A stretch of DNA of 34,281 bases, taken from Gammaproteobacteria bacterium. Lineage in GTDB: Bacteria; Pseudomonadota; Gammaproteobacteria; JAADHQ01. Both the position numbers and the translations under genes were made by a program. The stretch is from positions 1 through 34,281 of the forward strand of contig DRJK01000117.1 of the NCBI GenBank assembly GCA_011052215.1. Reading direction: 5' to 3'. Below, in pieces: positions 15,092-27,464 of the stretch (its first letter is position 1; each line of letters starts with the position of its first letter). Below the pieces are notes generated by a model that had not been told where the DNA came from, did not search any database, and worked only from the letters and a program-made list of their open reading frames with translations.

Positions 15092-16006
15092 TTATTTTTT
15101 TGCAATCGCATCCAGCTGTTTGGCCTTGATCATCTGCCCATCCAGACCGGATTCCTTATAGCTTTTCCCATAGGCCACGGACATCAATGTCGAGTAGTAT
15201 ACCACCGGGATATCAAACTTGGTGTTGTACTTCTTGTTGATCTGGCCCTGGTAGGCCTCGACGTTCAACTGGCAAACCGGGCAAGGGGTTACGATCATGT
15301 CGGCACCGCCATCATAGGCCGCTTCAATAATGTCCTTGATCAGGGCCTGGCTTTTTTCAGGTTCACTGAAGGCCAGTGCGCCACCACAGCAGGATACCTT
15401 CCTGTCGTAGTTATTGACCGGGTCTGCACCCAGGGTTTCAACCAGTTTATCGAGGTATTTCGGGTTTTCAAAAGACTCACCGTCGATACCAAAAGGGCGG
15501 TTGGTCTGACAGCCGACATAACCGGCGATCTTGATGCCTTCGAGTGGACGGGTGACATGCTTGCCCAGTGCGTCGTAACCGAAGTCTTCAATCAACACTT
15601 CAACCATGTGACGTATGTTCTGGTCGGCCTTAACAGTTAAACCACCTTCGGCCAGGGCCTTGTTGGTTTCCTCCATCAGGCCACCATCATTATGCAGACG
15701 TTCCTGGGTTTCTTTTGTTGCCAGCCAGCAAGCCGCACAGGTTGCGACAATATCCTGGTCAGGGTGAGCCTGTTCAGACAATGCCATGTTACGCGCAGAC
15801 ATGGCCAGACGCGGCAATTCACCACCACCGGCATAACCGATAGAGGCCGCACAGCAGTTCCAGTCCGGGATTTCGTTCAGTTGCACATCCAGCACATCGC
15901 ACATGCTGTTTACCGAGGTCTGATAATTAGAGGCCGAAGCTGCCTTTTGTGACGAGCATCCGGGGTAAAATGAATATTCTTTTTTAGCCATTATATTTTC
16001 TCCCAA
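15092..16006 (-). CDS. hdrB: HdrB-like CCG-domain protein (heterodisulfide reductase subunit B-like)
   Basis: Two CCG motifs: C..NCC..CAAC and C..SCC..CPVC. Confidence 0.9.
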   Translation of the reverse strand: MGENIMAKKEYSFYPGCSSQKAASASNYQTSVNSMCDVLDVQLNEIPDWNCCAASIGYAGGGELPRLAMSARNMALSEQAHPDQDIVATCAACWLATKETQERLHNDGGLMEETNKALAEGGLTVKADQNIRHMVEVLIEDFGYDALGKHVTRPLEGIKIAGYVGCQTNRPFGIDGESFENPKYLDKLVETLGADPVNNYDRKVSCCGGALAFSEPEKSQALIKDIIEAAYDGGADMIVTPCPVCQLNVEAYQGQINKKYNTKFDIPVVYYSTLMSVAYGKSYKESGLDGQMIKAKQLDAIAKK

Positions 16007-16009
16007 GCC

Positions 16010-16630
16010 TCAAAACTGCTTGGCTTTTGCTTCTTCGATTTCACGCGCCTTCTTGAGGATGGCATGCAAGCCTTTGGTGTCTTTAATGCTGTGACCGCCG
16101 AAGTATTCCATCGGGCTCATGCGCTTTGTCATCAACATACTCATGCCCATTTCTTTCATACACAGGGCAGTCTTGATACCTTCAACAAAGCCATTCATGA
16201 AATACAGTTTGAGACCCAACTGCAATTCGTTGACCCGGCCTTTTTTTGTCAGGTTGTCCCAGAAGATGCTGGCAAACTTCATGGTTTGCTGGTTCTTTGG
16301 TGCCAGGCCCAAACGTTTTGCGTAGTGTGCCAGGCCATGCATGATATGGGTGATAGGCAGGCCGCGTGGGCAACGTGCGATACAGTTGTAACACGATGTA
16401 CACATCCACATGGATTCCGAGCTCAGGACAGCTTCACGTTTTCCGGCACGGATCATCATGAACAGTTCCTGTGGCGGGTGATCCCAGTATGGGCCGAACG
16501 GGCATGAGCCGGAGCACACGCCGCACTGCATACACATCTTCACCCATTCGCCTTCCTCGACATTGGCTTCAACTTCCGAGAGGAAGCTGTTGCGGTATTT
16601 TTCAACCATTGCTGTATTCATATCGCTCAT
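16010..16630 (-). CDS. hdrC: HdrC-like 4Fe-4S protein (heterodisulfide reductase subunit C-like)
   Basis: CMQCGVCSGSCPFGP and CTSCYNCIARCPRG. Confidence 0.9.
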   Translation of the reverse strand: MSDMNTAMVEKYRNSFLSEVEANVEEGEWVKMCMQCGVCSGSCPFGPYWDHPPQELFMMIRAGKREAVLSSESMWMCTSCYNCIARCPRGLPITHIMHGLAHYAKRLGLAPKNQQTMKFASIFWDNLTKKGRVNELQLGLKLYFMNGFVEGIKTALCMKEMGMSMLMTKRMSPMEYFGGHSIKDTKGLHAILKKAREIEEAKAKQF

Positions 16631-16642
16631 AATATCGCTCCC

Positions 16643-18883
16643 CTAGAACTTGAATGGGCTCATGCCGATCTTTTCGATCGTCGCGGCCATATCGTTGATG
16701 AGTTGAGGTGCGCGTTCGATATCGGTGATCGCGATCTCGTATGTTTCAACACGTTCAGGCTCAAGACTCAGAGACTGCAAGGTGTCATCGACCTTACTCA
16801 TACGATCCTGGGCAATTTCAGAGCCTTTAACAAAGTGGCACTGGTAGTTCTCACCCTTCTGGCAACCCATCAGAATAATACCGTCATAACCACTGTTGAG
16901 CGCATCTGTTACCCAGATCAGGTTGGTAGAACCCAGACAGCGAATCGGGATGATGCGTGCGAAGGCGCTGTATTCCACGCCGTTCATGGCAGCCATGTCG
17001 AGCGCCGGATAGGCATCGTTTTCACAGGCCAGTACCAGGATGCGTGGCTTTTCGTCGAACTCTTCCGGGATGTCAACGTTCTTGATCTGGTTACCGACGG
17101 TATCGATCGAGTAATTATCAAACGAGATAACACGAACCGGGCAGGCACCCATGCAGGTGCCACAACGACGGCAACGGCCCTCGTTGAACTGCGGGTAACG
17201 CTCCTCGTCTTCATCGATGGCGCCGAATGGACATTCCACAGTGCAGCGTTTGCATTGCGTACAACCCTCCTTGCGGAAGCTCGGGTATGAAAGGTCTCCT
17301 GAACGCGGATGGGCGGCGCGACCCAGCTCGGCATTTTCAGCGGCCTGGATCGCCTTCAGTGCGGCACCCGTGGCATCTTCAATTGCCTGGCCGATGTCCA
17401 TCGGACGACGGGTAGGGCCAGCGGTATAGATACCGGTGCGGCGGGTTTCATACGGGAAGCAGATGAAGTGCGAGTCGTTGAATCCGTGACGCAGTTGCGG
17501 CATGTCCTTACCCTGACGATAATCAAGATTGAGGATGGAATCGACGCTGACTTCCCATTTACCGGGGTCGTCCTGTCCGACCACATCGATATCAACACCA
17601 GCATTGGCAACCATGCCGGTAGCCAGCACGACCAGGTCGGCGTCGGTTGATGTGTCTTCATCCAGGATCATGTCCCTGAACTTGACGGTACAACCATTGC
17701 CGTTATCCGTTACCTCGGAAGCGACACCCTTGGTGAAGTTAATGCCCTTGTCCTGACCGCTGCGGTAGAAGTCTTCACCGCCGGCACCCGGGGTGCGCAG
17801 GTCTGTGAACATAACCGTCGTATCAATCGCAGGGTTCTGATCCTTGAAGTACATGGCCTGCTTGATCGAGGTTGTACAGCAATGACCGGAGCAATATGGC
17901 AGGTGGCCTTCTTCGTCACTACGTTGGCCTGCGCACTGGATGAACACGACGCTGTTAATGTCCTTGCCATCCGCTGTTTTGATCACGCCACCATCCGCGG
18001 CCGCAGCCAGGGCTTCCAGTTCCATTTGTGTAACGACATTTTTGCCCTTGCCATAACCGAGGTGAGGCAATTGATTTGCATCGTATTCGGTGAAGCCGGA
18101 GGTCTGGATGATTGCACCAAAGTTTTCAGTTGCAGTGGCACCGGACTCGGTGGTGATATCGGCTGAGAAACGACCGGGGGCGCCACTGGTTTTGGTGACG
18201 GTGCTGTTCAGGTGTACGGTGATCTTGCTGTCCGCATCGACGGCTGCGATCAGCGCAGCAACGCCGCTGTCTTCAGGGTCCTTGAACGGCGAGCTTTCCG
18301 GGACACGCCTGTACAGGTTTGCAGCAGACCCGCCAAGTGCACCGGTCTTTTCAACAATGGTAGCCTCGTAACCGGCCCTGGCCGCTTCAATAGCCGCCGT
18401 CATGCCGGAGATACCACCACCAACGATCAGCAGGTTCTTTCTGCCTTCAGACTGACCGCTTGGAGTTGGCGGTGTCATCACGCTGACTTCATGTACCGCC
18501 ATACGTGTATAGTCTTCAGCCATTTCCTGCGTGGTTTCAGATGCCTCGTCTGTATCCGGGCGAACCCAGATGACACCTTCACGAACATTGCCACGTGAGA
18601 TGGCGACGTTTTCGAAACTAAACGCCTCTGTCTTGGCCCGCCGGGAACAGGCGACAATCGCAATATGATTGACGCCATCGTTGTCGATGTCATCCTGAAT
18701 CATTTTTACGCCTTCGGCACTACACAGGAAGTCATGTTCTTTTGTGACTTGCGATTTACATTCACGCGTTGCAATGGTGGCCATACCAGCCGTATTGACC
18801 CGATCGCCAATGCCGCAGCCTTTACAGATATAGGTTCCAACTTTCTTTTCTTCTGCCACGGCCTTAACCCTCCGATCCGGCAA
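16643..18883 (-). CDS. qmoB: QmoB-like / HdrA-like flavoprotein with C-terminal MvhD-like domain
   Basis: FAD-binding IVGGGISGMTAAIEAARAGY, CTQCKRCTVECPFGA and CRRCGTCMGACPVRV ferredoxin motifs, MGCQKGENYQCHFVKGSEIAQDRM MvhD-like end. Confidence 0.9.
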   Translation of the reverse strand: MPDRRVKAVAEEKKVGTYICKGCGIGDRVNTAGMATIATRECKSQVTKEHDFLCSAEGVKMIQDDIDNDGVNHIAIVACSRRAKTEAFSFENVAISRGNVREGVIWVRPDTDEASETTQEMAEDYTRMAVHEVSVMTPPTPSGQSEGRKNLLIVGGGISGMTAAIEAARAGYEATIVEKTGALGGSAANLYRRVPESSPFKDPEDSGVAALIAAVDADSKITVHLNSTVTKTSGAPGRFSADITTESGATATENFGAIIQTSGFTEYDANQLPHLGYGKGKNVVTQMELEALAAAADGGVIKTADGKDINSVVFIQCAGQRSDEEGHLPYCSGHCCTTSIKQAMYFKDQNPAIDTTVMFTDLRTPGAGGEDFYRSGQDKGINFTKGVASEVTDNGNGCTVKFRDMILDEDTSTDADLVVLATGMVANAGVDIDVVGQDDPGKWEVSVDSILNLDYRQGKDMPQLRHGFNDSHFICFPYETRRTGIYTAGPTRRPMDIGQAIEDATGAALKAIQAAENAELGRAAHPRSGDLSYPSFRKEGCTQCKRCTVECPFGAIDEDEERYPQFNEGRCRRCGTCMGACPVRVISFDNYSIDTVGNQIKNVDIPEEFDEKPRILVLACENDAYPALDMAAMNGVEYSAFARIIPIRCLGSTNLIWVTDALNSGYDGIILMGCQKGENYQCHFVKGSEIAQDRMSKVDDTLQSLSLEPERVETYEIAITDIERAPQLINDMAATIEKIGMSPFKF

Positions 18884-20150
18884 CGTTGTTCACTACCTGG
18901 ATTGCTCTCAGGGCGCTAGCCGTTGCGTTTTGTACAGCCCGGTTAACATCCAGGGCATCAGATGAACAGCCGGCGGCAAAGATTGCGCCGTTGGACTCGT
19001 CCGCTTCAATGAAACCTTCTTCATTAAATTTCACATCAACCGGGAAGGCATCTGCAGGAACACTGGGTTCCATACCGATGGCCAGTACCACCAGGTCATG
19101 CTCGTTGGCATAGCGGTGATAACCTTCGGTATCCACGCCGTGCAATACAGGGTTGCCGTTCTCCTTGTTTTCGACAACGGAGGCCACCTTGGACTTGGTG
19201 AAGGTGACATTTGGTAATTCTTTAACCTTGCGGTAGAAGTCATCGATGCGGTCGATGGCACGGATATCAATGTAATAAATAGTTGCCTGGCCTTCCTCGC
19301 CATATTTTTCATTTACATAATTGGCGTGTTTCAGGCTGGCCATGCAGCAAATTCTTGAACAGTGCTTGAGGTGGTTTATATCGCGTGAACCGGCACACTG
19401 GATCATGGCGACATTTTTTGCCTCGGCACCATCAGATGGGCGCAGGATCTTGCCACCGGTCGGACCATGCGGGTCACACAGGCGTTCAAATTCAACACTG
19501 GTGATCACATTGTCGATGCGGTCATAGCCGTAAGCCTGAATCTTGTTGGCGTCGTAGGGCTGCCATCCGGTTGCCCAGATAATCGCACCAACGGTGATGT
19601 CGATTTCTTCTTCCTGCATATCCAGGTCAATCGCATCGTATTTACAGGCCTCCCTGGCCTTGCTGGCATCGTCCGTACCGATAATGGCAGGGTCGAGAAC
19701 GTATCGTTGCGGGTAGGCCATCGCGTGTTGCAGGTAGGCACCCTTGCGTTTACCAAGGCCATAGTTGAAATCATCATCAAATTCAGTTTCAACGACCTTG
19801 CCACATTCACCGCAGGCCGTGCAGTTTTCGGTGATATAACGCGGGCTCACCTTGACCTTGACGCTGTAGTTGCCGGCATCACCACTGATGGATGCCACCT
19901 CGGACATGGTTATGATGCGCAGGTTCTTGTTGCCCTTGATGCGACGATTATTAATCTCCAGGCCACAGGTTGGGTGACACAGTTTGGGGAAATAGCGATA
20001 AAGCTGGCTGACACGGCCGCCCAGTGCTGGCGATTTTTCCAGCAGGATAACCTGCTTGCCGCATTCTGCAGCCTCAAGTGCTGCGGTCATACCGCTGATC
20101 CCGCCACCGACGACCAGAATAGTCTGGTTGGTTGCGATTACATCCGACAT
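18864..20150 (-). CDS. qmoA: QmoA-like / HdrA-like flavoprotein
   Basis: MSDVIATNQTILVVGGGISGMTAALEAAECGK, FPKLCHPTCGLEINNRRIKGN, CAGSRDINHLKHCSRICCMASLKHANYV. Start chosen at 20150 rather than 20210. Confidence 0.9.
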   Translation of the reverse strand: MSDVIATNQTILVVGGGISGMTAALEAAECGKQVILLEKSPALGGRVSQLYRYFPKLCHPTCGLEINNRRIKGNKNLRIITMSEVASISGDAGNYSVKVKVSPRYITENCTACGECGKVVETEFDDDFNYGLGKRKGAYLQHAMAYPQRYVLDPAIIGTDDASKAREACKYDAIDLDMQEEEIDITVGAIIWATGWQPYDANKIQAYGYDRIDNVITSVEFERLCDPHGPTGGKILRPSDGAEAKNVAMIQCAGSRDINHLKHCSRICCMASLKHANYVNEKYGEEGQATIYYIDIRAIDRIDDFYRKVKELPNVTFTKSKVASVVENKENGNPVLHGVDTEGYHRYANEHDLVVLAIGMEPSVPADAFPVDVKFNEEGFIEADESNGAIFAAGCSSDALDVNRAVQNATASALRAIQVVNNVAGSEG

Positions 20151-20343
20151 TGATTTTCCTCCGCCCGGAATGTTTAAAAGAATTCTTTGTTGCGGGCATA
20201 TTTCCCGCATTGCAGGGACCCGATTTTTGAGCGTTAAGGGTACTCTTACTTGTGTCGATCGGCCAGTAATAAGTCGGTCCTGAACAATTGAAATTACAAA
20301 TGAGCAAATAGATTATCTATATACCTTAATATGACAGGGACTA

Positions 20344-20475
20344 GGTACGGAAAGTAACAGGAACTAGGGACTAGGTACGAGGGACTAGGAAAAGCAAAAA
20401 CCAGCTGGCTTGTATCTGGGTAGTACAATCATATCCCCAGTACCCAGTCCCTAGTTCCTGTTGTTTCCTGTTACC
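20344..20475. repeat. Second palindromic repeat family (gggactaggtac type), copy 1
   Basis: Inverted arms ggtacggaaagtaacaggaactagggactaggtac / gtacccagtccctagttcctgttgtttcctgttacc. The centre matches 26721-26803. Confidence 0.75.
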
Positions 20476-20510
20476 ATCCGTTCCTGGGTATCATACGGAG
20501 TGTCGGCAAA

Positions 20511-21323
20511 GTGGAAGCAAAAGTCTTAAAACCTGAAGAATATTATATAGAATCAGAGCCTTACTATGAGCCCGTGGCCAACGAAATCGGGATTTTCGAG
20601 GCCGCCTACAACAATCAGTTGCCGATTTTGCTGAAAGGCCCCACTGGTTGTGGCAAAACCCGCTTTATGGAGCACATGGCCTGGCGGCTCAAACGTCCAA
20701 TGATCACGGTTTCCTGCCACGATGACCTGACGGCCTCCGATCTGGTAGGCCGCTTTCTGATCAGCAAGGGCGAAACAGTCTGGGTCGACGGCCCGTTGGC
20801 CCGGGCCGTGAGAAGTGGCGGGATATGTTACCTTGACGAGATTGTTGAGGCGCGTAAGGACACCACCGTGGTCATTCACCCGCTTGCCGATGACCGTCGC
20901 GTTTTACCCATTGAAAAACTGGGAGAATTACTCGAAGCGACGCCCGAATTCTGTCTGGCTATCTCCTATAATCCGGGTTACCAGAGTGTATTGAAAGATC
21001 TGAAGCAGAGTACGCGTCAACGTTTTGTCGCCCTGGAGTTCAATTACCCGGACGCGATCCTCGAGAAAAAAATCCTGATCAATGAATCGGGTATCGATGA
21101 GGATGCAGCAGATAAGCTGGTCAGGTTTGCACACATGACCCGCAACCTGAAAGGCAGTGGGCTGGAAGAAGGCGCCAGTACACGTTTACTGGTGCACGCC
21201 GGAAAGCTGATGGTCTCTGGCGTAAAACCGGTTCCCGCATGTCAAAGTGCAGTTGCCCAGGCCCTGACAGACGATGCAGAGATGCTGCTGGCGGTCACAG
21301 AATTGAGTGCATCGTTGTTTTGA
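20511..21323 (+). CDS. cbbQ: CbbQ/NirQ/NorQ-type MoxR AAA+ ATPase
   Basis: GTG start; Walker [73 protein letters not shown]. Confidence 0.93.
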
Positions 21324-21417
21324 TGCAGACGGGGGTTATGATCGTACCATTCAGATACAAGCCAACTGTTTTTTGTTTTTCCTGGTTTCTCATACCCCGC
21401 ACCTGAATATATTATGA

Positions 21418-21654
21418 TACTGCTGTCCCGTTAACCTGTAACAAATATAGTTGAAACGTAAACGGCAAGTCGGTTTTGAGTTAAACAGAGCATTCCGGAC
21501 ATGAAACCGGCAAGCCTGATCAAGACACGCAAAAGATGCCATCCATGGCTGCTCGACAGCCGCATCCCTGCGGCAGACGGTCTTTATTTGGCTATACCGA
21601 TTCCACGTCCTCACATTGATGCACGCTTAATAAATTAACGGGACATTAGCAGGG
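21418..21654 (+). repeat. MITE-like palindromic repeat, copy D, with 9-bp target duplication
   Basis: tgtcccgttaac ... ttaacgggaca ends flanked by atattatga at 21409-21417 and 21655-21663. The empty site cctgaatatattatgagtaaatct is present at 23717-23740. Confidence 0.88.
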
Positions 21655-22010
21655 ATATTATGAGTAAATCTATAATTGTCAAAACGCCTTGTCATGGGTA
21701 TGAACTTGTCGATTTTGGACAGTGAACGTGTGTCGCAATCCATAGATGAGGCTTTGTTTTTCTTGCTATAAAAATCCCACAAATTATTGACTTTCACTTT
21801 TCTCACAAAAGAACTAAATGCACGAAACCTCTCCTTTTCAATTAAAATAAGAGCCTGCGATAAGTCTAGACCCAACAGATCTTCATTAAATTTCTTATAT
21901 TGCCGGGTTACATAGCTGTTTATTTCAATTTCAGCCGCAGGGACTATAGGAGCGAGAATCATTACGGTAATAATCAACACTACTTTTAAGTAATTATCTG
22001 CCATCATCAT
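21627..22010 (-). pseudogene. Secreted hypothetical protein, 3' end replaced by antisense norD-fragment and MITE sequence
   Basis: Signal-peptide-like N-terminus. C-terminal LSKIDKFIPMTRRF... is translated from the antisense of the duplicated norD 5' fragment. Confidence 0.6.
21664..21722 (+). pseudogene. Truncated duplicate of the 5' end of the norD-like gene
   Basis: 21655-21722 matches 23724-23791 with one mismatch. Reads MSKSIIVKTPCHGYELVDFGQ then TGA at the junction. Confidence 0.85.
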
Positions 22011-22016
22011 TTATCC

Positions 22017-22084
22017 TGCATAACGCTGCCTATGAGACGCGGCCGACGAAGGAGGCCGTCGCTGCCCGACGGGGTTGTTAGAGG
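22017..22084 (-). other. attC-like recombination site (integron cassette boundary)
   Basis: Minus strand CTCTAACAACCCCGTCGGGCAGCGACGGCCTCCTTCGTCGGCCGCGTCTCATAGGCAGCGTTATGC: TAACAA...GCGTTATGC ends, imperfect dyad. Overlaps the stop of the upstream toxin gene and ends shortly before the next ATG. Confidence 0.5.
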
Positions 22085-22347
22085 GCGCCACGATATATAT
22101 CTTTTCTATGCCCCACCTTCACCACAACGACAATAAGTTCTTTATCATCGATACTGTAGACAATTCGGTAAGGTCCTTGACGTATGCGATACTTATTGTG
22201 ACCGGATAACTTCTTCGAACCTGGTGGGCGGGGATCTGCAGCCAATTGGCCAATTCGACGCATTATGCGTTGCCGTTCTTTCTTTTGCGGTATAGCTTCA
22301 ATTTCTTTTACCGCGGAACGCTTGATTGAAACCCTATATTTTTCCAC
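22078..22347 (-). CDS. RelE/ParE family toxin
   Basis: YRVSIKRSAVKEIEAIPQKKERQRIMRRIGQLAADPRPPGSKKLSGHNKYRIRQGPYRIVYSIDDKELIVVVVKVGHRKDIYR. Confidence 0.93.
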   Translation of the reverse strand: MEKYRVSIKRSAVKEIEAIPQKKERQRIMRRIGQLAADPRPPGSKKLSGHNKYRIRQGPYRIVYSIDDKELIVVVVKVGHRKDIYRGAL

Positions 22348-22567
22348 GCCGTTTTAGATCTTTTACAACGTTTTCATACGGCAGGCTTGGCTCGTTCACT
22401 CTGTCTTCAAAGGCAGCAAGATCCTCGGCATCTTCAGCAAGGCTTAATTGCACAGCCTCATTGACCAAATCCGATATAGACCGCTCAGTCTCTGCTGCTT
22501 TGACCCGAAGAGCGCGGTGGAGCGCCGGGTCAAAATATACGGTTGCTCGCTTGGGATTACTGTCCAT
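22334..22567 (-). CDS. Ribbon-helix-helix antitoxin
   Basis: KRATVYFDPALHRALRVKAAETERSISDLVNEAVQLSL; overlaps the toxin gene start. Confidence 0.88.
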   Translation of the reverse strand: MDSNPKRATVYFDPALHRALRVKAAETERSISDLVNEAVQLSLAEDAEDLAAFEDRVNEPSLPYENVVKDLKRRGKI

Positions 22568-22594
22568 AGTGATATAGATAGCACTATATCACTA
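22567..22594. promoter_or_regulatory. Putative antitoxin operator
   Basis: Perfect 11-bp inverted repeat tagtgatatag-atagca-ctatatcacta at the antitoxin start codon. Confidence 0.6.
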
Positions 22595-22678
22595 TAACGT
22601 CAAGACGTCATATCAACGTTTTAATAAGTGGTGCGCGGTAGCGCGTCCGAAAGAGCGATAGCGAATGGCTTGATTTTC

Positions 22679-23176
22679 TTATATTTTTTTCGGCAATTCA
22701 TCTCGTGCTATTTCAATTAATTTTGGAAGATATTTATTTACAATATCTCCTATTTCATTTGCTTGAATAAAACACCATTCGCTTCGTTCTTGCTCTGTAT
22801 CGGATTCACCGAGGCTTTGTTCATGAATTTTGTAAATTGACTGTACAATTAGTTTATTAGCTTCTTTTGTAATATCGTAGAACTCTTGAGAAAATATTAT
22901 TCCGCCAGTTTCTGAATATCTAGAAATCTCTCTAAGAGCTATTTCATATTTTGCCTCAATTGCACTCGATGGTTCGCAGCAATGTTCTGCCCGGACTTGC
23001 TCTGCCCAATGAAGCAACTCTTCAAAAGCTTCAACAATATTTTTATACGTATTACGTCTTTCGTTCCAGAATTTCTCTTTCTTGAATTTATTCAGAGCAA
23101 ACAATGATCCAAAATAGGCAGATAGAAAACCAATAATGATTACCGAAATAAATTTTCCAATTTCAGAGTAGTCCAA
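22679..23176 (-). CDS. Hypothetical single-TM membrane protein
   Basis: N-terminal TM IGKFISVIIIGFLSAYFGSLFAL; rest helical and soluble. AT-rich relative to neighbours. Confidence 0.6.
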   Translation of the reverse strand: MDYSEIGKFISVIIIGFLSAYFGSLFALNKFKKEKFWNERRNTYKNIVEAFEELLHWAEQVRAEHCCEPSSAIEAKYEIALREISRYSETGGIIFSQEFYDITKEANKLIVQSIYKIHEQSLGESDTEQERSEWCFIQANEIGDIVNKYLPKLIEIARDELPKKI

Positions 23177-23679
23177 TATTATTTACCTAAATATATACAG
23201 TAAGTGTCCCTGACATGTGCATATGTATAACACGGGACTTTCACAGGTATTGCACATTTACTATGTTACGGTTTTTTTATAAACCCGATTTATGCATACT
23301 TTCTGAAGTTACATAAACATTTATGAAATCAATATTATATCGGTTTTGAAGTGATTTGGGACATGCGTCAGGTGTGGATAAATCTGGCGCAGCTGCTGTA
23401 ATATGATTGCGTTGTGCCGTATATTATTTTTGGCCTGACATTTCGTTTGCTTAAGCTGCCCACGGCAATTTGCAGGGGGAGTTGAATGATATATTGTTAT
23501 TAGTATACGCATAGTTTTAAAAAGTATACTGTTCCAGTGGGTCGGGATGAACAAGTGATACGTGAATATATCAGACACCAGGAATATGAAGATTGCCGAA
23601 CGGGTCGATTGCAATTGATGTAACTACCCCCTCCGGGTACGGCTCCGTAAAAGGCTGCTTCGAGCGGTCACAAATTAAA

Positions 23680-23701
23680 ATCCCTGGTTTTGCCAGGGGA
23701 T
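23680..23701. terminator. Hairpin (possible terminator at the end of the insert)
   Basis: atccctgg-ttttgc-caggggat stem directly upstream of the norD-like gene. Confidence 0.4.
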
Positions 23702-23728
23702 ATTTACTATCTGGTACCTGAATATATT

Positions 23729-26716
23729 ATGAGTAAATCTATAATTGTCAAAACGCCATGTCATGGGTATGAACTTGTCGATTTTGGACAGGGCCGGGTG
23801 TTAGAGCGGTTTGGAGATATGATGGTAGACAGGCCGGTTTTGAGTTCTGAAGGAGAACGGAATCTGGATGGCTGGAAGCCGGACTGGCGATTTACCCCTC
23901 ATGCCGCGATCAGTGTATGGGAAAAAACCAGTGACAGGGCCAAACCCGAATGGACCCTTGATTGTCTTGGTTCCGTGTTCACACTGAGATTATTTGAGCG
24001 GGGGTTTTTGTCACTTCGCCCGGAACATTTTGCCTGTGCACAGTGGCTGTCTGAACGGTTGCAGGGTTGTTATCACCTCGACAACATCCGGGTGCTAAAC
24101 CTGTTTGGCGGGGCAGGCGTGGTCAGCGCTGCGGCATTGAGATCCAGCGCCAGTGTTGTTCATGTTGAGTCATCGGTCGATGAGCTGGAAATTGCCAGGC
24201 AGTTTCTTGGCAGTCAGAGTATAGAATATATTTGTGAAGACCCGCATGACTATGTGGACCAGGCGTTACGCGACCGGCAACGGTTTGAGTTAATCATCGT
24301 ACAACCACCGGTACAACAAAAAGGCCCCGGTAAACGGTCATGGGATATCAAGGTTGATCTGGGTCCCTTGATGAACAAACTGTCCAGACTGGCCAGTGAT
24401 GATTTTCGTGGTATCTGGCTGGCCCCGCAAATGCAGGTCTGGCAACCGGAAAGTCTGTCGCCTTTCCTCAAGGAAACATTTCCGGGGCGAAATATTGTCG
24501 ATGCTGGAATCAGGCTGGCCACGGCTGATGGGCGTGAAATTTCCAGCGGGATTGCAGTCTACGCCTATGATGATGACGAGATCATCAGTGCCGAAGGAGA
24601 ACGTCCTCCACTGACGACAGAGAATCTTGAAATCCGGCTGGACGTATATCTGGAACCGGCCCTGTCTTCGCGGCGAACTGCAATCGGGCCTGCCAGAAAC
24701 CTGGCAAACTGTAGCCGTAAACAGCAGGATTTTGCCTTGCATTGGGTCGAGGTGCTGGTGCGCACCCATGCCGAAATGGGTTATCAGTTTGCGGCCTGTG
24801 TCAGCAAGGCTGTGGACGTGATGTCCGAAGAGGAGGTTCAGGAATGGCTGCTGGCCGCAATCGATGCATTTGATACCACCGGTCTGCACGCCGGCATTGC
24901 CATTTTGAAGAATGTCGAGGTCTTTGCAGAAAAGTGCCGGGCGCGTAAAACCGGTGTAAGACTGGCAGATGTGAGTCACGTGCTTGAGCTTTTTGCCCAT
25001 GGATTGAATGGACGGCAACTGAGGGTTGCAGAAGACGATGGCTGTTTTACCGATACGGAAACACTGTTTTTACCCGGGCAAGTCAATCTGTTTCAGGACA
25101 AGGAGCATAACTTTCAGCTTTACAAGGTTATGGTTGTGCATTTGTGGGCGCAAACATGGTGGGGTACTTTCAGTCATGATGTCCTGAAGAGGCTGGGTGA
25201 TTTTGATGACAGTGAAAAGGCGTTGCTGCTATTTCACAGGCTGGAGTTAATTCGTCATGACGCGAGGATTAAAAAAATGTTGCCGGGTATACACCGAACC
25301 TTGCGGGAGTTGTGCGATATCCACAACGAAAAACTGATCCCCGATGGATGGAGCCCGTGGGCAGACCGGTTGAGTGAGATGCATTCTACTGCGAAAGACA
25401 GTTTTTCAATACTGGAAGAATGCATGTCATCAGATGTGCCGGCACCGGTTTGTTATCAGGGAATTCTGAGGCCGGCTCAGGCTGAAAAAATTCGCCAGAT
25501 GCGTATAGAAAAAGACAAGGCCAGTCTGCAATCCATGCTGGTGCAGTTCAAGGGTGACGCGGAAAACATTTCCAGCCTGAAGCCACGCGATCAGGGTAGC
25601 GACAAGCGGCTTGAAATCAATATCAAAGTGAATGAGGTCCCGGGTGAGCTGGAAATAGAAATCACACTGGATGGACAGCCGATACCGCCGCCGGATGACA
25701 TTGCAAATGTTATCTCCTCAATCCATCAGGATCTCGGCGAGATACCACCTGAATATCTCGTTGCGGCAGGTGACGGTGCCTGGCGTCCTGACGAAACGGA
25801 TGAGGATAAAAGTCGTGATGTATGGAAAGGGTCCTATCACGAGAAGGGTGCCTTTTTATACGATGAGTGGGATTTCAAGCGTCAGAGCTACCGTAAACAA
25901 TGGTGTGTTTTGCGGGAAATAGATATCAACAAACAGCCCGTGGATTTTATTGATGCAACACTCAGAAAATATAAAGGGCTGGTGCATGAAATCCGCCGGA
26001 CATTTGAAGTTTTGCGTGGTGAAGACAAGCTGTTAAAAAGACAACCTTTTGGTGATGATGTCGATATCGATGCGGTAGTTGAAGCCATTGCTGATGTCAG
26101 TAGCGGGCTGGAGATGACCGACAGATTGTTTACCAAAAAGCATAAACTCGAGCGTAATATTGCCGTCATGTTTATGGTGGATATGAGTGGTTCAACACGG
26201 GGCTGGATCAATGAGGCCGAACGCGAATCACTGGTCCTTTTGTGTGAGGCACTGGAAATACTCGGTGATCGATACGCCATATACGGATTTTCCGGTGTGA
26301 CACGCAAACGCTGTGAGTTATACAGGATAAAGCACTTCGACGAGCCTTATGACGATGAAATCAAGGGCCGTGTCTGCGGCGTCAGTCCGCAGGACTATAC
26401 CCGCATGGGTGTAACCATCCGGCATTTGTCCGGGCTGTTAAACAAGGTGGAGGCCAGAACAAAATTATTGATCACCCTGTCTGATGGCAAGCCGGATGAC
26501 TTTGATGGCTACCGCAGCGAGTATGGCATAGAAGATACAAGGCGGGCGTTGATCGAGGCCAGGCGAGATGGTATCCATCCATTCTGTATAACAATTGATA
26601 CCGAGGGCGCCGGTTACCTGCCGCATATGTACGGGGCGGTGAATTACATGGTGCTGGATGATGTCCGGAAATTGCCGTTGAGGGTGTCGGATATATATCG
26701 GAAGCTCACTTCGTGA
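23729..26716 (+). CDS. Fusion: N-terminal RlmI-like class I SAM-methyltransferase domain + C-terminal NorD/CbbO-type VWA protein
   Basis: N-term YELVDFGQGRVLERFGDMMVDRP, FTLRLFERGFLSLRPEHFACAQWL, VLNLFGGAGVVSAAALRSSASVVHVESS, FELIIVQPPVQQKGPGKRSWDIKVDL. C-term MIDAS MFMVDMSGSTRGW, YTRMG, LSDGKPDDFDGY. Start taken at ATG 23729 rather than 23690. Confidence 0.85.
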   Translation: MSKSIIVKTPCHGYELVDFGQGRVLERFGDMMVDRPVLSSEGERNLDGWKPDWRFTPHAAISVWEKTSDRAKPEWTLDCLGSVFTLRLFERGFLSLRPEHFACAQWLSERLQGCYHLDNIRVLNLFGGAGVVSAAALRSSASVVHVESSVDELEIARQFLGSQSIEYICEDPHDYVDQALRDRQRFELIIVQPPVQQKGPGKRSWDIKVDLGPLMNKLSRLASDDFRGIWLAPQMQVWQPESLSPFLKETFPGRNIVDAGIRLATADGREISSGIAVYAYDDDEIISAEGERPPLTTENLEIRLDVYLEPALSSRRTAIGPARNLANCSRKQQDFALHWVEVLVRTHAEMGYQFAACVSKAVDVMSEEEVQEWLLAAIDAFDTTGLHAGIAILKNVEVFAEKCRARKTGVRLADVSHVLELFAHGLNGRQLRVAEDDGCFTDTETLFLPGQVNLFQDKEHNFQLYKVMVVHLWAQTWWGTFSHDVLKRLGDFDDSEKALLLFHRLELIRHDARIKKMLPGIHRTLRELCDIHNEKLIPDGWSPWADRLSEMHSTAKDSFSILEECMSSDVPAPVCYQGILRPAQAEKIRQMRIEKDKASLQSMLVQFKGDAENISSLKPRDQGSDKRLEINIKVNEVPGELEIEITLDGQPIPPPDDIANVISSIHQDLGEIPPEYLVAAGDGAWRPDETDEDKSRDVWKGSYHEKGAFLYDEWDFKRQSYRKQWCVLREIDINKQPVDFIDATLRKYKGLVHEIRRTFEVLRGEDKLLKRQPFGDDVDIDAVVEAIADVSSGLEMTDRLFTKKHKLERNIAVMFMVDMSGSTRGWINEAERESLVLLCEALEILGDRYAIYGFSGVTRKRCELYRIKHFDEPYDDEIKGRVCGVSPQDYTRMGVTIRHLSGLLNKVEARTKLLITLSDGKPDDFDGYRSEYGIEDTRRALIEARRDGIHPFCITIDTEGAGYLPHMYGAVNYMVLDDVRKLPLRVSDIYRKLTS

Positions 26717-26720
26717 GCTT

Positions 26721-26803
26721 AGGGACTAGCGACGAGGTACCAGGAAAGGCAAAAAACCAGTTGACTTGCATCTGGGTAGTACATTCATATCCCTAGTCCC
26801 TTG
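26721..26803 (+). repeat. Second palindromic repeat family, copy 2
   Basis: aggaaaggcaaaaaaccagttgacttgcatctgggtagtacattcatatccctagtccc matches aggaaaagcaaaaaccagctggcttgtatctgggtagtacaatcatatccccagtaccc at 20387. Confidence 0.8.
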
Positions 26804-26810
26804 ACCTGTT

Positions 26811-27464
26811 TTACCACCCTGGGGGCAATTTCTCATTAATCACTATGCACTTGTTTCCCGGTGTAATGTACCCACCCTTTTGCAGGTCTTTCATGATGCG
26901 ACTGACCATTTCACGGGATGATCCGATCATTCTGGCGATATCCTGATGGGTCAGTTTCTGGTTGATGACCTTCACACCGTCTTCATCTTCGGCCATATCC
27001 AGTAATGTTTTGGCAACGCGCCCGTAGACATCCATCAGGGCCAGGTTGCGGATATTGTCCGTCAGCCTGCGAACCATTCGTGTCAGTTCGGTGATGACGG
27101 TTCGCGCTATCTCCGGATGATCAACCAGAGATTTATCGAAGTCATTTTTTGAGATAATGGAAAACTTGCAGGGTTCCATGGTCATAATAGATGCGGAACG
27201 GGGCGCCTGATCCAGAATCGCCAGCTCGCCAAAGTACTCACCTGGCCCCATCATGGTCAGTATCACTTCCTTGCCATCCTCATTACTCAGAAAGACCTTG
27301 ATCTTGCCGGACAGGATGACATACATGGAATTGGTGTCATCACCCTCATTGATAATAATGGAGTTTTTCGGGAAGGTTTTGTTAACGGCGTGTGAGGCAA
27401 TACTCTTTACTTCCTTGTCCTTCAGGTCTGCAAATATCGGTATTTTTTTTAGAACATTTTCCAT
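26811..27464 (-). CDS. Crp/Fnr family transcriptional regulator
   Basis: Cyclic-nucleotide-binding fold (GPGEYFGELAILDQAPRSASIMTME) and HTH (LTHQDIARMIGSSREMVSRIMKDLQKGGYI). Confidence 0.94.
   Translation of the reverse strand: MENVLKKIPIFADLKDKEVKSIASHAVNKTFPKNSIIINEGDDTNSMYVILSGKIKVFLSNEDGKEVILTMMGPGEYFGELAILDQAPRSASIMTMEPCKFSIISKNDFDKSLVDHPEIARTVITELTRMVRRLTDNIRNLALMDVYGRVAKTLLDMAEDEDGVKVINQKLTHQDIARMIGSSREMVSRIMKDLQKGGYITPGNKCIVINEKLPPGW

Follow-up and report, generated by a model that had tools for sequence, protein, structure and literature searches.

The window analysed here is a stretch of 34,281 nucleotides of a gammaproteobacterial contig, DRJK01000117.1. It contains a long open reading frame in which a methyltransferase-like domain is joined to a NorD-type protein, a gene for a MoxR-type ATPase on the same strand and, divergent from these, a group of qmo- and hdr-like genes. 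The features are as follows.

15092-16006, minus strand, hdrB-like gene
16010-16630, minus strand, hdrC-like gene
16643-18883, minus strand, qmoB-like gene (HdrA family)
18864-20210, minus strand, qmoA-like gene (HdrA family), divergent neighbour and part of the putative client module
20511-21323, plus strand, CbbQ/NorQ-type MoxR AAA+ ATPase gene, predicted motor partner (Pfam AAA_5 and CbbQ_C, the latter at 6.5e-29)
23729-26716, plus strand, fusion ORF of 995 aa, no internal stop
23729-24583, plus strand, 2IGT-type class I methyltransferase-like domain, residues 1-285 (phmmer, profile, AlphaFold, Foldseek)
24095-24118, plus strand, motif I LNLFGGAG, residues 123-130 (family alignment)
24302-24310, plus strand, degenerate motif IV, residues 192-194, QPP instead of DPP (family alignment)
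24341-24358, plus strand, W205-D206-x3-D210 region, invariant in the fused family (family alignment)
24614-25558, plus strand, NorD-like N-terminal helical domain of the qmo/apr-linked subfamily, residues ~296-610
25559-25843, plus strand, linker, residues ~611-705, partly of low model confidence (AlphaFold)
25844-26713, plus strand, VWA domain with MIDAS (D818, S820, S822, T891, D919), residues 706-995

Between cbbQ and the fusion lies an insert of about 2.3 kb (21420-23723), and a short repeat at ~21403 and ~23716 resembles an insertion duplication. A ribbon-helix-helix/RelE-like toxin-antitoxin pair was recognized by eye on the minus strand of the insert (22334-22567 and 22078-22347), which also carries a small membrane ORF (22679-23176) and, at 21655-21722, a 68-nt copy of the start of the fusion with 99% identity. 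A dispersed repeat of about 45-60 nt at 21600-21660 has at least 39 further matches in the same genome (79-91% identity), and direct as well as inverted copies of TAGGGACTAG-type repeats lie around the cbbQ-fusion block (20365-20444, 21329-21396 and 26720-26800). No Rfam RNA family was found in 20200-27000.

The fusion frame is open from 23690 (TTG) or 23729 (ATG) to 26716, the TTG start adding 13 residues, and it is uninterrupted, as a preliminary description of this DNA had stated. When the protein was compared with PDB sequences by phmmer, two separate matches were obtained: residues 11-258 matched 2IGT (2e-14) and residues 706-994 matched NorD 9qhd (5e-48). The AlphaFold model of the whole protein, with 57 family members in the input, had a mean pLDDT of 85 and a pTM of 0.64, the lowest confidence being found at residues 618-620 and 682-701. 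In Foldseek this model matched 2IGT with a TMt of 0.81 and the NorD VWA part with a TMt of 0.73-0.81, and the VWA part matched 9qh6 (E 3e-19, TMt 0.77). The methyltransferase domain modelled alone reached a pLDDT of 91 and a pTM of 0.90, and its residues 1-285 matched 2IGT at E 1.5e-26 (TM 0.86/0.80). A family profile of the domain matched 2IGT at 1.6e-50.

The preliminary description had read the N-terminus as RlmI-like or Methyltrans_SAM and the remainder as NorD/CbbO with an intact MIDAS. A methyltransferase fold of the 2IGT/PF10672 type is indeed present within residues 1-300, but the closest solved relative is 2IGT and not RlmI. The assignment of the remainder agrees with the phmmer and Foldseek matches to NorD, and all five MIDAS residues are in place, as is the QPP that had been noticed at motif IV. 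The architecture had also been suspected to lie outside standard annotation. In Pfam and NCBIfam, the N-terminal domain of the window protein fell below every curated cut-off, including the gathering score of PF10672, which stand-alone relatives do reach, as does one fused protein, L067, with 27.3 bits; nor was the fusion found in the literature searched.

A scan with one genome per species was performed and the best 80 loci were retained. Among these, 23 are fused (L076-L097 and the truncated L142), 56 lack the methyltransferase part (~700 aa) and one is cut by the contig end (L107). Counting the window and two additional genomes, the set of distinct full-length fused proteins comprises 25, all joined at the same place. 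The architecture is therefore that of a conserved group and not a singleton. The preliminary description had cautioned against an assembly join or a frameshift near 24.6 kb; this is very unlikely, because independently assembled genomes encode 24 further distinct proteins with the identical junction. The methyltransferase-like/NorD-type fusion is real.

Fused forms come mostly from gammaproteobacterial sulfur oxidisers, under the names Thiogranum, Thiohalobacter, Ectothiorhodospiraceae or Gammaproteobacteria; one record titled Halobacteria archaeon is probably a mislabelled bin. Among the unfused records are Thiomargarita, Thiosymbion, Sulfuricaulis, Acidiferrobacter and Sulfurimicrobium. A quick maximum-likelihood tree built on the NorD part placed 25 of its 26 fused rows in one clade (SH-aLRT 89), with L092 beside it in an unsupported placement; the fused architecture is essentially one clade. 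Three further candidate fusions (G260, G355 and G214) were rejected, their longer open frames being the cbbQ gene read in another frame. A 1305-codon frame in L095 was likewise rejected as a triple fusion because cbbQ lies there in a different frame.

Conservation is uneven along the fused proteins, the mean pairwise identity being 0.49 in the methyltransferase domain, 0.51 in the NorD N-terminal part and 0.82 in the VWA part. The MIDAS residues D818, S820, S822, T891 and D919 are invariant among the aligned fused proteins, and the MIDAS pattern (DxSxS, T, D) is found in 93 of 98 family members. In the methyltransferase domain, the window protein has the motif I loop NLFGGAG and an acidic residue after strand 2 (E147); the pattern L-F-x-x-x-G is invariant among fused copies and the acidic residue is kept in 22 of 25. 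Also invariant across the 25 copies are G20, G22, R23, E26, L125, F126, G130, H145, V146, W205, D206, D210, G228 and W230. The motif IV Asp, by contrast, is kept in 4/4 stand-alone proteins and in only two fused copies (L086 and L096); P, S, R, T, N or Q stands in its place in the other 23, and the position of D171 varies among D, N, H and E. Since the motif IV Asp is mostly lost while the fold and the conserved surface are kept, the extra domain is most likely a binding module.

The genome G134, in which QmoB is absent, bears on the history of this domain. There, the methyltransferase part is an intact ORF of 282 aa with DPP kept; a cbbQ relict lies upstream of it, and it is followed by a stop and then an in-frame VWA relict, which indicates that this stand-alone copy is a de-fused one. 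To judge from these remains, the methyltransferase domain outlived the chaperone in G134. Because DPP is retained by this copy and by the fused L086 and L096, the ancestral fusion probably had DPP. The parsimonious reading would be that the fusion began with DPP and then lost the Asp several times under continued selection for the fold. Stand-alone 2IGT-type methyltransferases with DPP intact and no adjacent NorD relict were also seen in G062 (L047/L075) and G096 (L043/L071).

It might be argued from the invariant motif I, the acidic residue after strand 2, the probable ancestral DPP and the intact ORF left in G134 after decay of the chaperone that the fused domain is an active methyltransferase, acting on the client (e.g. 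AprA or a Qmo/Hdr subunit) or on RNA, with the chaperone presenting the substrate. Certain methyltransferases function without the motif IV Asp, and loss of the DPP Asp is for that reason no proof of lost catalysis. The replacement of this Asp in nearly all fused copies and the variability at D171 nevertheless speak against methyl transfer, as does the existence of some 56 unfused relatives. The class sample contained no strong match to a stand-alone methyltransferase in genomes whose NorD part is unfused, which makes the domain an accessory. An active enzyme therefore seems unlikely, and a domain that binds is preferred.

The ATPase gene is present in 51 of the 80 loci. Of 13 genomes with the NorD part that were tested, 12 encode an ATPase of the window's subclass (73-86% identical), the exception being G265, which has the fusion; the 11 tested genomes that lack the NorD part contained no such ATPase, but only relatives of about 60% identity. 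Among the 80 fetched loci, QmoA is encoded in 33, AprA/B in 11 and either in 41, and many of the remaining loci are short contigs. The divergent qmo/cbbQ order recurs across many lineages, and an alternative order, aprB-aprA-YkgJ-like-cbbQ-NorD-like, was seen in betaproteobacterial and some other loci (L128, L130, L140 with its start cut off, L141, L148 and L154). The YkgJ-like cysteine protein of these apr-linked loci is another candidate assembly factor. Genomes G286, G158, G128, G064, G149, G300 and G260 carry a second, more diverged NorD-like paralogue of the qmo/apr-linked subfamily (for example L160 and L164) that shares 33-36% identity with the window protein over the N-terminal part.

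Of 369 genomes of the class that were examined for co-occurrence, 61 contained the NorD part, 61 QmoB and 43 both (Fisher p 2e-27), the two lying within 12 kb in 22 of these 43. Of the 61 genomes with the NorD part, 46 also have AprA of the Qmo-linked lineage (p 2e-27). These p-values overstate independence, since the genomes are related and sulfur oxidisers are over-represented in both sets. For AprA of the other lineage, no association with the NorD part was seen (p 0.68). Fifteen genomes combine Qmo and the linked AprA but lack the NorD part, which is thus not obligatory, and 15 have the NorD part with neither, several of these being distant matches or incomplete genomes. Joint loss was also observed. 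At the syntenic site in G003, a member of the same genus, the neighbouring NnrS-like gene and CRP-type regulator are both conserved, but nothing of the qmo-hdr-cbbQ-fusion block is left between them except relicts of the cbbQ end and the fusion start.

Gene linkage alone does not identify the client, and the pair could act on some other client or be a general respiratory chaperone, the linkage to qmo/apr reflecting co-regulation only. Some loci do have neither qmo nor apr within 10 kb, and the 15 genomes with both but without the pair could be read in the same way. However, the divergent order repeated in so many lineages, the apr-linked alternative and the joint decay with qmo in G003 and G134 make this rather improbable. 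The NorD-like part belongs to a subfamily of its own, whose ties are to qmo/apr genes rather than to rubisco or cNOR.

The homology of the pair to CbbQ/CbbO raises the question whether it is a second rubisco activase (CbbQO), the more so as the hosts, by their names and known biology, are for the most part autotrophs. However, the genome has on contig C112 a form II cbbM followed by its own cbbQ and cbbO, with which the window pair shares 58% (ATPase) and 32% (VWA) identity, and a form II rubisco query gave no match in the 80 loci. Similarly, NorD is the closest to the VWA part among solved structures and an NnrS-like gene was recognized nearby by eye, as if the pair were a NorQD maturing cNOR; yet in this genome, which is 95% complete, three COX1-family proteins were found, one CtaD-like and two CcoN, and no NorB. 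The separate cbbM-cbbQ-cbbO set and the lack of a detected NorB make both targets unlikely, a rubisco activase being very improbable and a role in cNOR maturation barely credible.

The usual place of the gene beside genes for sulfite oxidation via APS points to an undescribed helper of the APS pathway. The ORF product and the CbbQ/NorQ-like ATPase at 20511-21323 would together make up a MoxR-type AAA+ pair, with the ORF product as its VWA adaptor; within sulfur oxidation, the pair may serve the reverse APS-reductase branch, which comprises AprBA and QmoAB-HdrBC. In NorQD, the VWA finger lies in the ATPase pore and the variable N-terminal domain of NorD has been proposed to give target specificity (PMC13036017, PMC9976466). 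By analogy, the VWA finger of the window protein would sit in the AAA+ pore, the NorD-like N-terminal domain would grip the client jointly with the MIDAS, and the client would be twisted by hydrolysis of ATP, which would permit cofactor insertion or repair. In E. coli, ViaA of the RavA-ViaA pair binds the flavoprotein FrdA, the reported effect being Frd inhibition (PMC10585395), and AprA scores against fumarate reductase flavoprotein family models. For these reasons, namely the NorQD mechanism, the ViaA-FrdA binding and the resemblance of AprA to fumarate reductase, AprBA or the QmoAB-HdrBC complex is favoured as the most likely client. The 2IGT-type domain would have been added N-terminally in one clade, retaining its fold and a family-specific conserved surface, and may bind the client, or SAM/SAH as a signal, rather than carry out classical methyl transfer.

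Taken together, we regard the chances as about even that the fusion and the ATPase form a MoxR/VWA factor by which the APS reductase-Qmo-Hdr branch is matured or remodelled, and that the methyltransferase domain binds but is not classically catalytic. That this is a dedicated, ATP-driven maturation system for dissimilatory APS reductase-Qmo-Hdr, in which one clade recruited an Asp-stripped methyltransferase fold as a SAM-sensing or client-binding module, is put forward tentatively, as a possibility somewhat short of probable. MoxR/VWA pairs mature or repair key metalloenzymes, and to our knowledge few of their clients are known; the APS reductase branch has a central place in the sulfur cycle. 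With a genetically linked pair of this kind, the pathway would gain a candidate dedicated chaperone. Nature also supplies fused, unfused and de-fused forms, a comparison through which the function of the variable N-termini of VWA adaptors could be tested. The parts are of known kinds, while their combination and the tie to qmo/apr were not found: the open-access literature searched, outside which a mention is possible, contained no paper on the fusion or on a tie of NorD, CbbQ or CbbO to qmo/apr.

Compared with 2IGT (an Agrobacterium SAM-dependent methyltransferase) and PF10672 Methyltrans_SAM, the window domain shares the whole-domain fold, the N-terminal motif D-x-G-x-G-x-x-x-E and motif I, but it is fused to a NorD protein, the motif IV Asp is gone in most fused members and W-D-x3-D is invariant there. 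We know of no natural substrate of 2IGT. The qmoAB-hdrBC cluster of sulfur oxidisers (PMC4136832, PMC2211403) consists of the same genes that neighbour the window's pair, whereas the text of PMC4136832 does not name NorD, CbbQ or CbbO. RavA-ViaA, compared by description, is likewise a MoxR/VWA pair, and its target FrdA belongs to a family that AprA resembles; it differs in the reported inhibition of Frd, and the part of the report used here mentions no methyltransferase domain (PMC10585395). CbbO and CbbQ, the rubisco activase (PMC4660213, PMC8718961), also form a gene pair of a VWA protein and a MoxR ATPase, but the window pair lies away from rubisco and the cbbM-cbbQ-cbbO set of the genome is separate. 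In contrast to NorD and NorQ of Paracoccus and Jhaorihella (PDB 9QH6, 9QHD; PMC13036017), the window pair is linked to qmo/apr and not to norCB, no NorB having been found in the genome, and the window protein has another N-terminal domain subfamily and an extra methyltransferase domain of 290 aa. Shared by the two systems are the C-terminal MIDAS VWA domain (32-33% identity over ~290 aligned positions), the flexible linker from the N-terminal domain to the VWA domain and the paired AAA+ ATPase with a CbbQ_C domain.
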